Shown here: positions 3,010 to 19,002 of the stretch, piece after piece
Layout: each line of letters opens with the position of its first letter
Position numbering within the stretch: position 1 is the first letter of the stretch
Assembly (NCBI RefSeq): GCF_030296755.1
Contig: NZ_AP027741.1
Span: forward strand, 1,054,001-1,118,000
Source: Methylophaga marina
GTDB lineage: Bacteria; Pseudomonadota; Gammaproteobacteria; Nitrosococcales; Methylophagaceae
Reading direction: 5' to 3'
Length of the DNA: 64,000 bases
Made by a program: the position numbers and the translations under genes
Notes under the pieces: model-generated
The model's input: the letters and a program-made list of their open reading frames with translations, nothing else
Databases searched by the model: none
What the model was told of the DNA's origin: nothing

Positions 3010-3036
3010 TAATCGGTCAACGCAAAAACCATTAAC
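3010..3036 (-). promoter_or_regulatory. Possible sigma-28 promoter of flagellin 2
   Basis: Minus strand ACCGATTA (3010-3017) resembles the sigma-28 -10 element GCCGATAA; the -35 region (GTTAA near 3032-3036) is weak. The -10 lies 91 bases before the flagellin 2 ATG, almost the same as the 92 bases for flagellin 1, which supports the assignment. It overlaps the 3' end of the upstream glycosyltransferase gene. Confidence 0.4.
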
Positions 3037-6000
3037 TATTTGTTTTTATTAAACTTAAACACTTTCAACCACTCATGCAAGTGATCTTCAAGGATAAATT
3101 TTTGACGTACCCAGTTTTGAAGCTGCCGGCCATGAGCGGCAATTTTCTCCGGTTCGGCTAAAGCGGCAAGAATAGTTTCTATCCACACAACCTCATCATT
3201 TGGCACTAATGTCACAGGCGCGCCATATTGCTGGTATGGATAGATATCACTGGCAATAACTGGCCAGCCCATCGCCCCATACTCAAGAAGTCGTAAATTA
3301 CTTTTTGCTTCGTTAAAAGGGTGTTCCTCTAGAGGTGCGAGAGCCAAATCTAAATCAAGATCGGCTAAAACCTGCGGATATTGATTAAACGACACAAATT
3401 GATGGAACTCTTTGACATAAGGTCTGAGTTCAAGCGGACACATCCCCATAAAAACCCAATCTATTCTATCTGCCAATGATTCAACAACAGGAGTCATTAA
3501 AGCTAAATCGCCGGCATGCTGATTCGCCCCAGCCCAACCCACTCGGGGTTTTGGGTGAGCGTTTTTCTGTGGTAAGGATAGATTTAACCAGCGTTGTGAC
3601 TCCAACCTATTAGGAATAACCGTCACATTGTCAGTATATTGACGACATAGATCCGCTAATGGCTCGGTAGAGACGATTGTATGGTCACATAAGGCGAGTG
3701 TTTTTCTGAGCCTTGAACGCATATCCCGGAAAACCAGTTTTTTTCTATCACTCATTTTTGGCAAGTTGGTGACCAAGTCGTCCAAGGAAAGGACAATGCT
3801 GATTTGGGTGTGCGCTTTGACCTCTTTAAGAAAATTATAGGTGACATCAGTCAACATTTGTTGCAGGTAGATCACATCGGGCTTCAATCGCATCAATTCA
3901 AATAAGGTCGGCAATAATGGTTGCTCTTTGAACTCATGAAACGGCATCCATGTGAGTTCTACATCACCTCGTTCTGCCAAAGCCTGCATTGGTGCAATCA
4001 TGCGATACTGGCCAGTGCCAGAACCATTAAGAGGAAAAACAACAACCCGTGTTTTTAAATTAAACCGAGGGTCCCACTGTCGTTGGATATCTACTTCTGG
4101 TGCAAAAAATCGTGAGCGCAGACTCAGGTTGTCATTATAGAAAGGATCGTGTTTGAACAAATCAGACCACTTTTCGACGATGAACTCTTCTCTGTGAGAA
4201 TTGTAATCGGCCACACCATTTGATTGCTCTGCCAGCTTTTTGTCCTGAAACAAGGTGGCATAGGGTGACCAGATAACCTTTTTACCTTGCTGCTGGATAG
4301 TGAGACATAAATCCATAACGGTATAACACGTATCTGAAAATATACTTTCACTCAGCCCTCCAGCCTGGATGAACGTCTGTTTTTCAATACCGAAACATGC
4401 TGATGACACGGAGGAATACTGCTGAATGCAATGCGCTCGTTCCATATAGCCCGGTTCAGTAATATCGAGCCCTTGGAATAGACCACTGACATCATCCGTG
4501 ATACCGAAAACGCCTCCAGCATGAATAATCTTGTTGTTATCATCGAGGATACGGGCACCCACAATCCCCACGTCCTCTCTGGCCAACAATGGCATCATCT
4601 CATTTAACCAATTGCCGTTCACAGCCATAGCAAAGCAAGACATAACAACAATATAATCACCACTAGCGATGTTCACACCATGGTTAATAGCTGCCGAGTA
4701 GTTTTTCTGTTCAAAACGTGTTGAAACGAAACGTTCCCCCCACATTTCTGACATCTCAGCATACACATCTTCGAGATCTTCGACATCACTCATGACATCT
4801 ACAACGACCACTTCGTAGTTAATATAGGTCGTGTTGAGCTCTAACTCTTCCAAACATCGGGCAAGGTAGGAAACATAGTTATGATGAGCAACGATAATAG
4901 AGACTTTGGGCTGATTTTTCGTGCTATAGACTGTCTGGAATCGCGGCTTGTTTTTGGGGTTCGATATTGTGGCTGAAATACCGCTCCTGTTTAGATGTGC
5001 ATGGCGGGTCAACCATTCATTTTCTGCCAATAGCTCTTTATTAATCTCTAATGGAATAGATGTGAGCAATACATCAGGGATATGAGAAAACGCTGATTGC
5101 TGATATTGCTCATACACCTTAAATGCCATATCGGTGGTGTGCACATAAGCTAAGTTTGAATATCCACCGACCTGTTCAAAGGCTTCTCTACTGACAATGA
5201 ATGAACGCCCTAAGTATGAATAGGCCCTCAGATAATCCAGACTAAACTCAGGTTTGAACCAGATATCAGCTTTAGACTCATCGACTAATTCATCACTATA
5301 GATAAACTGCGCTTTTGTCTCTAAGTTAATCGTATCAGCAAAGCTCAATAAAGCATGTGGCGCTAACTTATCACCAGGAATTAATTGCATAATCCAATCA
5401 AGCTGAGCAGCAACCACAACCTGTTCGATGTCTTCATTCAGATTTTTCCCTGAGATCTGGACCCATTCAATATTCTCAGGCACAGAGGAAAACGCATCTG
5501 GGGCCGGGATATTACTTAGGATAGTCAAACCCCAAGCTTGATAGAGCTGTTGCTCAAGTGACTCAATCGTATTGGAAAGAGCCTCTAGTTCTGATGCATT
5601 GACGATGATAAGTAAATGAAAACCTGGCGTCATTGTCCAAGTACTTGACATTCGTTCAGCAAGTGACATAACAGAGGTTTCTGACAACTCATGTTGATAT
5701 AACCATCGTTTATTTTTGGAAAGACGTTCCCTTTCTGCAATCAATACATCACTTTGTTCGGAGACAACACCATTTATGTAAGCTAGTGTTTTATCAACCC
5801 ATGCATTCGATAATCTCTTTCTTTTTGAAAAGAACTCTTGCGTTTGAATCACAAACCATTCGATCTGGGTGGTGCAATCGTTTATTAGTTTTTCGTAGTT
5901 TACACCGACCTGTGCGACCGTATTTCTCGCCATTGCTATGGCATCTGGATCAGTTCCAAATGCAATACCAGGGCCATTCAAATCACCATCGATTTTATCC

Positions 6001-17167: not shown

Positions 17168-18247
17168 TTATCGAGCTCGCTTACTCGCCTGAACAAACTG
17201 CTGAATTTGTTGCAAGCTTATCTCGCGCATGGGCTTTCCAGAATAAAAAGCATCATACCAGTCAAATGTGAGAGAGAGTGCATCATCAATATGCCAAACA
17301 GGTTGCCAGTGAAGTTGTTGTCGGGCTTTACTACAGTCGAGCATCAGTATCGATGCTTCATGATGCTCGTTATGCTGAGGTGCAAACCAATCAAGAGACG
17401 GCCAACGTTGTTGAGCAAATTCGACAATATAATCTACGGGCTTCGTGTCTTCCATTTCAGGACCAAAATTCCATGCATCACCCACTTCTTCGCCGCACTC
17501 AATCAGCTGTTGAGCCAGTAATAAATAACCTGATAAAGGCTCCAATACATGCTGCCAAGGTCTAATGGCTCGCGGATGACGAATCTCAAGCGAATGACCT
17601 GTCTGATTGGCTTTTATTAAATCTGGGACTAACCGGTATTCAGACCAGTCACCGCCACCAATCACATTACCGGCACGCGCACTAGCTATGGCAGTTTTAT
17701 TATCCATAAAAAAGGACTGTCGATAGGCACTGGTGACAAGCTCGGCACAGCCTTTACTATTGCTGTATGGGTCATGCCCACCCAACCGATCGTTTTCGCG
17801 GTATGGCCAGGACCACTCATGGTTTTCGTAACATTTATCTGACGTCACCACGACCACAGCTTGAACACTGGGACAATGTCTGACGGTTTCTAGAAGATTG
17901 ACTGTCCCCATCACATTGGTTTGATAAGTTCCAACAGGATCAAGGTAGCTGGGTTTAACTAATGATTGTGCAGCGAGATGGAACACCACATCGGGTTGTG
18001 TTTGATTAACAACGTCAGATAGTGTTGATAAATCAGAAATATCTGCTATCACAGAATTGATAATTGTCTCTAACTCGAGAGCTTGATATATCGAAGGCGT
18101 AGTATTTGGCTCAAGCGCATAACCGGTGACTTTGGCGCCAAGCTGGGTTAACCACAAGCTGAGCCAACTCCCTTTAAAACCGGTATGTCCGGTAATCAAA
18201 ACTGATTTGTTCTGCCAGAAAGTCTTATCAATCACCACACTTTCCAT
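17168..18247 (-). CDS. rfbG: CDP-glucose 4,6-dehydratase
   Basis: A 359-residue SDR of normal family length. The NAD-binding motif is VLITGHTGFKGSWLSLWL (residues 15-32). Catalytic residues lie in VVVTSDKCYEN and the YSNSKGCAEL segment. It converts CDP-D-glucose to CDP-4-keto-6-deoxy-D-glucose, the second step to CDP-3,6-dideoxyhexoses. Its start overlaps the rfbF stop by 16 bases and it is followed by rfbH, the same order as in Salmonella and Yersinia O-antigen clusters. Confidence 0.94.
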   Translation of the reverse strand: MESVVIDKTFWQNKSVLITGHTGFKGSWLSLWLTQLGAKVTGYALEPNTTPSIYQALELETIINSVIADISDLSTLSDVVNQTQPDVVFHLAAQSLVKPSYLDPVGTYQTNVMGTVNLLETVRHCPSVQAVVVVTSDKCYENHEWSWPYRENDRLGGHDPYSNSKGCAELVTSAYRQSFFMDNKTAIASARAGNVIGGGDWSEYRLVPDLIKANQTGHSLEIRHPRAIRPWQHVLEPLSGYLLLAQQLIECGEEVGDAWNFGPEMEDTKPVDYIVEFAQQRWPSLDWFAPQHNEHHEASILMLDCSKARQQLHWQPVWHIDDALSLTFDWYDAFYSGKPMREISLQQIQQFVQASKRAR

Positions 18248-19002
18248 GGTGCATTGCCTGACTGCCAGAGTTGTTCGAGATGCTGTTTATCACGCAAGGT
18301 ATCCATAGGCTGCCAAAAGCCAGTGTGCTTAAACACCGATAGTTGCTGTTCTTTTACCAACTGCTCCATTGGGCTGGACTCCCAGCTCGTTTGGTCGCCC
18401 TCAATATAGTCAATCACTTTGGGTGACAACACAAAAAAGCCACCACTGACCATGCCATTGTCACCTTTAGGCTTTTCCTGAAACTTAGTGACCTGATCCT
18501 TTTCAATCTCAAGCGCACCAAACTTGGCTTGAGGATAAGCTGCCATGACCGTGGCTAACCTCCCCTGCTCTTGATGAAAACGAATAGAATCTGTGATGTT
18601 GACGTTACTGACACCATCGCCGTAAGTCAGGCAAAATACTTCATCCTCATTGACATATTCGGCAATACGCTTGATGCGGCCACCAGTCATACTATCGTCA
18701 CCGGTATCCACCAGAGTCACTTTCCACGGTTCAGCATGAGCCTCATGCACATGCATTTTATTGTTTTGCATATCAAACGTGATGTCCGACATATGCAAAA
18801 AATAATTCGCAAAATATTCTTTGATGAGGTAGCCCTTGTAACCACAGCAGATAATAAAATCATTCACGCCATGATAGGAATAGATTTTCATAATATGCCA
18901 GAGAATAGGCTTTCCACCTATTTCTATCATCGGTTTAGGTTTATTGATGGACTCTTCACTGATACGCGTGCCTAAGCCACCTGCCAGAATTACTGCTTTC
19001 AT
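18232..19002 (-). CDS. rfbF: Glucose-1-phosphate cytidylyltransferase
   Basis: A 256-residue nucleotidyltransferase beginning MKAVILAGGLGTRISEES, with PKPMIEIGGKPILWHIMK and the catalytic segment CLTYGDGVSNVN. It makes CDP-glucose from glucose-1-phosphate and CTP, the entry step of the pathway. I choose the ATG at 19002 because it starts the conserved GGLGTR motif directly; an in-frame ATG 78 bases upstream would extend into the flgL end. The gene begins only 37 bases after flgL, so the operon may be transcribed from flagellar promoters. Confidence 0.94.
   Translation of the reverse strand: MKAVILAGGLGTRISEESINKPKPMIEIGGKPILWHIMKIYSYHGVNDFIICCGYKGYLIKEYFANYFLHMSDITFDMQNNKMHVHEAHAEPWKVTLVDTGDDSMTGGRIKRIAEYVNEDEVFCLTYGDGVSNVNITDSIRFHQEQGRLATVMAAYPQAKFGALEIEKDQVTKFQEKPKGDNGMVSGGFFVLSPKVIDYIEGDQTSWESSPMEQLVKEQQLSVFKHTGFWQPMDTLRDKQHLEQLWQSGNAPWKVW

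Follow-up and report, generated by a model that had tools for sequence, protein, structure and literature searches.

The 64,000-nucleotide stretch of Methylophaga marina contig NZ_AP027741.1 analyzed here (positions 1,054,001 to 1,118,000; hereafter the window) carries an island of nine minus-strand sugar genes, flanked by flgL on one side and flagellin genes on the other. These are rfbF, rfbG, rfbH, a neuB-cupin fusion, a gene for a thiamine diphosphate (ThDP)-dependent enzyme, two methyltransferase genes, and genes for a haloacid dehalogenase (HAD) phosphatase and a short-chain dehydrogenase/reductase (SDR). We propose, with a probability of about 0.58, that a 4-hydroxy-2-oxo acid made by the NeuB-type synthase is decarboxylated by the ThDP enzyme and added to a C-4 ketone, giving a long-branched dideoxyhexose. 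By comparison with known sugars, the product would be of the caryophyllose or erwiniose type rather than a nonulosonate, and neither a nonulosonate nor plain two-carbon (C2) branching appears to fit the data as well as a long branch. An earlier sequence-only reading had listed the same genes, and every one of them was found where it had placed them, with matching families.

In the proposed pathway, RfbF, RfbG, and RfbH are predicted to yield cytidine diphosphate (CDP)-4-keto-3,6-dideoxyglucose. The cupin, which resembles D-lyxose isomerase, would convert a ketose to an aldose, and the NeuB barrel would condense this aldose with phosphoenolpyruvate (PEP) to a 4-hydroxy-2-oxo acid; the HAD enzyme may take off a phosphate. 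The ThDP enzyme would then release CO2 and pass the remaining acyl anion to the C-4 ketone of CDP-4-keto-3,6-dideoxyglucose. The SDR is predicted to reduce the branch ketone, the methyltransferases may decorate the product, and a glycosyltransferase would move the long-branched 3,6-dideoxyhexose to its acceptor, which by position is probably flagellin. The assignment of rfbF-rfbG-rfbH to CDP-4-keto-3,6-dideoxyhexose synthesis, already made from the sequence alone, held up, since all three orthologues exceed curated cut-offs. RfbH has 3bcx and 3bb8 as closest solved chains and contains the HHITMGEGG and Cys motifs of the E1 enzyme.

Co-occurrence across genomes supports the view that the RfbF-RfbG-RfbH, NeuB, and ThDP steps would belong together. 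Among 48 genomes of one class, a full-length NeuB-cupin was present in all nine genomes with a close ThDP enzyme (E <= 1e-140) versus one of the 39 without it (p 6e-9), or two of 39 when one partial match is counted. All nine ThDP-bearing genomes also encode RfbH, and in six of them NeuB and ThDP genes are neighbors. We also searched 398 Pseudomonadota genomes for RfbH, which gave 37 loci outside the window's own genome, 17 of them with a ThDP gene in the fetched stretch. NeuB-cupin was found in 6/6 genomes whose ThDP enzyme is close to that of the window (59-63% identity) and in 0/11 of those with a remote one (32-40%). These results bear on the possibility that the island makes two separate sugars, a yersiniose-like C2-branched dideoxyhexose from RfbF, RfbG, RfbH, and ThDP, and an independent ulosonic acid from NeuB. 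Each half does resemble a known pathway, and several sugars are often made by one island. Such a division is nevertheless improbable, because no genome of the 48-genome class was seen to have the ThDP enzyme without this NeuB, genomes with a remote ThDP near RfbH lack the NeuB-cupin, and the window's genome has no strong match to the cytidylyltransferase family PF02348 besides KdsB.

Two peptide patterns were used to scan genomes for relatives of the NeuB-cupin; of the 252 loci obtained, the best 80 were analyzed. A ThDP gene lies in the fetched locus in 59 of the 80, on the same strand in 58 and with a gap below 900 nt in 55. RfbH was detected in 52 of the 55 ThDP genomes tested for it (four of the 59, L038, L055, L056, and L057, were left out), within the locus in 32 (one at only 35% identity) and elsewhere in 20 of the other 23. 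The corresponding count was 4/20 in tested ThDP-less genomes and 2/18 in the clade with a cytidine monophosphate (CMP)-type gene described below, against a background of 56/150 in Lachnospiraceae and 37/398 in Pseudomonadota. Other ThDP groups were seen near RfbH in genomes without the NeuB-cupin (L101, L102, L105, L107-L109, L118-L120, L122, and L131). A search of plasmids for the NeuB-cupin gave no match at E <= 1e-60.

The partner genes of the two kinds of locus differ sharply. A PF02348 cytidylyltransferase was present in one of the 59 ThDP loci versus 16 of the 21 ThDP-less loci, all 17 being confirmed by Pfam. Matches of an iterated cytidylyltransferase profile in the ThDP loci L052, L062, and L065 were ruled out by Pfam as false. 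A Pfam census of neighbors covered 23 of the 59 ThDP loci (133 neighbors, after removal of four flagellar genes by hand) and 16 of the 21 others (126 neighbors). PF02348 was the commonest family beside the ThDP-less NeuB-cupins (13/126) and was not among the top 25 families beside the paired ones, where the lowest listed count was 2. Rows of the NeuB tree fall on two sides, both well supported. One holds 18 rows, 15 with a CMP-type gene and three with neither partner. The other holds 62 rows, of which 58 have ThDP alone, one both (L058), one a CMP-type gene only (L068), and two neither (L047 and L054, the latter with a ThDP fragment at the contig end). The NeuB-ThDP link was maintained in rows that carry ten phylum labels. 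For Thermotogota, Doudnabacteria, and Microgenomates, both genes are in one locus but not next to each other. NeuB, ThDP, and SDR genes stand in a row in seven loci of Rhodoblastus, Methylocystis, Enterovirga, and uncultured Rhizobiales, and SDR relatives directly follow the ThDP gene in L044, L052, L053, L060, L061, L062, and L064.

This distribution weighs on an order of steps matching the sequence-only reading, in which the ThDP enzyme, like YerE, adds C2 from pyruvate, CDP is removed, and NeuB acts last, joining PEP to the freed branched sugar to give a branched nonulosonate-like acid. NeuB enzymes normally take free sugar aldehydes, and relatives of Nudix hydrolases, possible removers of CDP, occur in 14/59 paired loci (L021, L023, L030, L036, L065, and nine more), both of which would suit that order. 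A nonulosonate requires CMP activation, however, and a PF02348 gene is nearly always missing from ThDP loci. The window's own genome has one NeuB match, its only strong PF02348 match is KdsB (GlmU and IspD match more weakly), and the PF02348 search found no CMP-nonulosonate synthetase in it. Furthermore, the island genes that were scanned gave no family match to a hydrolase of the Nudix or NeuC type. We therefore regard a NeuB-last route as unlikely, and the earlier suggestion of a nonulosonate-like product did not find support.

The intact NeuB-cupin of Methylophaga sulfidovorans (507 aa) matches NeuB (3g8r, 1e-112), and its C-terminal third matches D-lyxose isomerase (2y0o). Its AlphaFold model (predicted local distance difference test score 91.8, from 23 sequences) has a barrel and SAF domain that match 3g8r and a cupin that matches 2y0o (Foldseek 7.3e-12, root-mean-square deviation 1.8 over 163 columns); the cupin was matched by Foldseek and HMMER, the VIA-align list being taken up by the barrel. 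With its TIM barrel, SAF domain, and catalytic and metal residues, the protein belongs to the NeuB superfamily. The alignment shows that the equivalents of K129, Y186, S213, H215, E234, and H236 of meningococcal NeuB are kept in 80/80 loci, and that the R314 equivalent is I, F, M, or W in 80/80 and never Arg; this is not N-acetylneuraminate synthase proper. According to part of the text of PMC6795526, R314 positions the N-acetyl group of N-acetylmannosamine in the meningococcal enzyme. Because the catalytic residues are kept and R314 is lost, PEP chemistry is probably retained and an N-acetyl sugar is improbable as the acceptor. The window type thus shares fold and six active-site residues with N-acetylneuraminate synthase but differs from it in the replacement of R314, N184, D247, and F288 and in its fusion to the D-lyxose-isomerase-like cupin. 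In the cupin, H417, E422, and H456 are present in 80/80 loci and H415 in 60/80, with Gln in the other 20. These four residues would be the metal ligands, and the modeled domain appears to have both the fold and the ligands of a D-lyxose isomerase. L031 was left out of one alignment (A4) on account of a stop codon. The C-terminal piece of the window NeuB, which was the part scored, did not reach the cut-offs of the sialic and pseudaminic acid synthase families.

Among solved chains, the window ThDP enzyme scores 396 bits against 8rph, 270 against 5ahk, and 263 against a plant acetolactate synthase. We take 5ahk to be a YerE-like enzyme of Pseudomonas, while the entry itself says acetolactate synthase II; it scores only slightly above the plant enzyme. 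In a tree of ThDP enzymes, a single group of 61 rows contains all 60 paired ones. The two solved YerE-like enzymes and ten of the eleven unpaired rows lie beyond it, and the acetolactate-synthase rows are separate. This tree omits the duplicates L016, L111, L143, and L145, partial rows (L038 and others), and the unpaired L105, and counts L114 and L116 as paired on the basis of a NeuB in their genomes, not on their contigs. The pocket of the window enzyme has P121, V290, and T489 where acetolactate synthase has the pocket residues Phe, Arg, and Trp. The nearest solved relative, 8rph, is JanthE according to passages of PMC12188165. The two enzymes differ in one motif (CDG, not GDG), and JanthE falls outside the NeuB-paired group.

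The designation of this protein as a YerE-like enzyme is borne out by its higher score against JanthE than against plant acetolactate synthase and by the separate position of the latter in the tree. The transfer of C2 from pyruvate that had been suggested along with it is not supported. The window enzyme groups apart from 5ahk and the acetolactate synthases, its three pocket residues are changed, and it is tied across genomes to a NeuB that pyruvate alone would not need. It is very improbable that the enzyme is an ordinary acetolactate synthase located here by chance. Its best NCBIfam match is indeed the acetolactate synthase large subunit, but the score of 392 bits is under the family cut-off of 538. 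Tree and pocket residues also led us to reject this identity, and the genome has other acetolactate-synthase-like genes, two of them at 32% identity. The system can be compared with YerE in yersiniose A synthesis, where RfbF, RfbG, and RfbH likewise supply CDP-4-keto-3,6-dideoxyglucose and an enzyme of the same ThDP superfamily adjoins. It differs in that the window enzyme is tied to the NeuB-cupin and stands apart from 5ahk, and its donor is likely a longer hydroxy-keto acid.

Published work on related enzymes points in the same direction. ErwE, which acts in erwiniose synthesis, and MMAR_2332, its counterpart for caryophyllose, reportedly favor 4-hydroxy-2-oxo acids as donors (PMC12247030), the product class of NeuB-type reactions, and JanthE accepts 4-hydroxy-2-oxovalerate with benzaldehyde according to passages of PMC12188165. 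It is because long-donor enzymes prefer the acids that a NeuB-type reaction yields that we consider NeuB the candidate donor source. The branch of caryophyllose is given as 1,3,4,5-tetrahydroxyhexyl in a passage of PMC5706390, and its pattern (2' deoxy, 3' hydroxyl) would be that of a PEP aldol product after loss of CO2. A related C4-branched sugar is known in Rhodopseudomonas palustris, as stated in part of PMC9912281. The source of the hydroxy-keto acid donors is not stated in the passages of Mycobacterium marinum literature or of PMC12247030 used here, and the text of PMC12247030 does not mention NeuB. The sequence-only reading had recognized no described pathway joining these enzymes, and in agreement with this we found none in the openly licensed literature searched for their pairing.

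Several observations weigh against a long-branched product or against the strength of the associations behind it. The genome tests share members: the six genomes of the RfbH test are all among the nine of the class, and the class was centered on a genome already known to carry the NeuB-ThDP pair. The associations are also not independent events. The partner switch may have been a single event, and since the NeuB split could have occurred once, the p-values overstate the case; more weight lies on the persistence of the link across ten phylum labels. NeuB and ThDP are on different contigs in G168, G175, and G227 (one genus), lie 2.8-9 kb apart in L031, L033, L035, and L050, and are on opposite strands in L033. 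L058 is a ThDP locus that also holds a CMP-type gene; of the 16 CMP-type genes in ThDP-less loci, that of L068 lies ~9 kb away, beside a ThDP-side NeuB, and those of L099 are beside a second NeuB. HAD relatives occur in only 10/59 and SDR relatives in only 18/59 ThDP loci, and three of the 23 genomes tested for RfbH outside the locus gave no match. With N184, D247, and F288 changed, the NeuB active site is not fully kept. The 61-row ThDP group is weakly supported (SH-like approximate likelihood ratio test 84) and includes the unpaired long row L101. T489 is not specific to the group, Thr being present in 6/11 unpaired enzymes and JanthE, while Phe at 121 is retained in four of the 60 paired rows and Arg at 290 in one. 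Five proteins of the genome match FAD_binding_6: NqrF-, flavohemoprotein-, ferredoxin-NADP reductase-, and PaaE-like proteins and one NAD_binding_1 protein of 248 aa. No clear E3 for RfbH is among them, and the reductase of RfbH may be missing or shared. Finally, neuB is out of frame in the assembly of the window strain itself.

This break in neuB, overlooked in the sequence-only reading, is a one-base shift at the A-run 15232-15237. It separates an N-terminal part (15143-15497, stop at 15143) from a C-terminal part in another frame (13978 to ~15240). The first methyltransferase gene is likewise broken at the A-run 11972-11978. If both shifts were real, the island would be decaying in this strain and its pathway dead or phase-variable. 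Two island genes broken at A-runs could be read in this way, but decay is quite unlikely. A third one-base shift near 44.2 kb, also at an A/T run, splits a gene (41676-44506) that is intact (941 aa) in M. aminisulfidivorans (G014), and neuB is unbroken in five of five relatives examined. The same two observations favor assembly error over programmed frameshifting. Both broken island sites look like slippery motifs. A programmed -1 shift was nevertheless rejected, as the shift site is not conserved in the relatives and assembly error is likelier. The window has matches of 60% identity or more to 49 M. aminisulfidivorans open reading frames, and for 45 of these a single frame covers >93%. The frameshifts are thus likely homopolymer errors of the assembly.

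The core of the island is conserved within the genus. As had been suggested on the basis of the sequence, genomes were searched for the same gene order, and the rfbF-rfbG-rfbH-neuB-ThDP core recurs in six of 23 genus genomes searched (own included), a seventh having neuB-end fragments. The order flgK-flgL-rfbF-rfbG-rfbH-neuB-ThDP is kept in five other genomes, those of M. sulfidovorans and M. aminisulfidivorans among them. In L017 the contig stops inside the ThDP gene. The genes past the core vary between islands in the four relatives whose contig continues, L018 being closest to the window. Given a constant core and variable downstream genes, the core likely makes the sugar backbone and the remaining genes decorate it. 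An N-terminal extension of RfbH (residues 1-104, ~104 aa) had tblastn matches in 5/80 loci, all Methylophaga (L021-L025).

Six of the eight junctions among the nine genes are overlaps of 4-16 bases, and two glycosyltransferase genes follow the nine (Table 1). Relatives of the larger, 1218-aa protein are present in the L016 and L018 islands.

Table 1. Genes of the sugar island and its flanks, with window coordinates
Feature	Position	Strand	Evidence
flgL, left anchor	19040..19945	-	TIGR02550 284 bits
rfbF, glucose-1-phosphate cytidylyltransferase	18232..19002	-	TIGR02623 464 bits, above cut-off; ATG start at 19002
rfbG, CDP-glucose 4,6-dehydratase	17168..18247	-	TIGR02622 504 bits, above cut-off
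rfbH, CDP-4-keto-6-deoxyglucose 3-dehydrase (E1)	15501..17153	-	PRK15407 718 bits, above cut-off; match starts at residue 105
neuB-SAF-cupin synthase	13978..15497	-	NeuB PF03102 and Cupin_2; frame broken in assembly
ThDP-dependent lyase, predicted acyl addition to C-4 ketone	12158..13981	-	PF02776/PF00205/PF02775 (three domains)
Methyltransferase 1, N-terminal zinc ribbon	11120..12165	-	Methyltransf_23, Cys-rich N-terminus; frame broken
Methyltransferase 2, Cys-rich N-terminal stretch	9946..11127	-	PF13489 (Methyltransf_23)
HAD phosphatase	9305..9949	-	PF13419 (HAD_2), 104 bits
SDR, predicted branch-ketone reductase	8263..9312	-	PF01370 (Epimerase-type)
GT2 glycosyltransferase, smaller of two	6808..8223	+	PF00535
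1218-aa protein, candidate transferase	3036..6692	-	GT2 domain PF00535; weak GT4-like C-terminus
Flagellin, right anchor	2125..2919	-	PF00669/PF00700
Second flagellin	1145..1990	-	PF00669/PF00700
flaG	656..1054		listed with flagellin genes

By its position alone, the island sugar probably decorates flagellin. Flagellin-linked sugar islands exist for pseudaminic and legionaminic acid, and the window island is like them in lying between flgL and flagellin. It differs in its CDP-dideoxyhexose genes and in the scores of its NeuB piece below the sialic and pseudaminic synthase cut-offs. The role in flagellin modification advanced by the sequence-only reading rested on location, and a flgL or flagellin match was found in just 8/80 NeuB-cupin loci, of which seven come from Methylophaga or near relatives. 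The chemistry therefore seems not to be restricted to the flagellum, whether or not it serves there.

Other neighbors of the NeuB-cupins point to further variation. Radical SAM proteins are frequent beside NeuB-ThDP pairs (14/133 neighbors) and possibly perform extra deoxygenation or methylation steps. A cytidylyltransferase adjoins the NeuB-cupins of the sister side (L081-L100), accompanied in several loci by a HAD phosphatase and an oxidoreductase of the GFO/IDH/MocA family; these genes may form an undescribed CMP-ulosonate pathway. Pathways of the CMP-2-keto-3-deoxynononic acid (KDN) and CMP-3-deoxy-D-manno-octulosonic acid (Kdo) type serve as comparison for this side, in its cytidylyltransferase and HAD phosphatase. 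The ThDP side differs from them in nearly always lacking the cytidylyltransferase.

More tentatively, and with somewhat less than an even chance, this may be a widespread and so far undescribed way of building double sugars: the isomerase-synthase would make a Kdo- or KDN-like ulosonic acid, and a dedicated ThDP lyase would decarboxylate it and attach the entire polyol chain to C-4 of a CDP-3,6-dideoxyhexose. The resulting C12-C14 branched sugars would occur in some ten phyla, on flagella and on other surfaces. A NeuB-type synthase tied to this ThDP group would explain the origin of the hydroxy-keto acid donors, and chemistry of the sialic acid type would be joined with dideoxyhexose chemistry across many phyla. 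Unusual sugars would then be expected in methylotrophs, in candidate phyla, and in the Lachnospiraceae of the rumen. NeuB and ThDP together could be put to direct use in converting simple sugars to tertiary alcohols.

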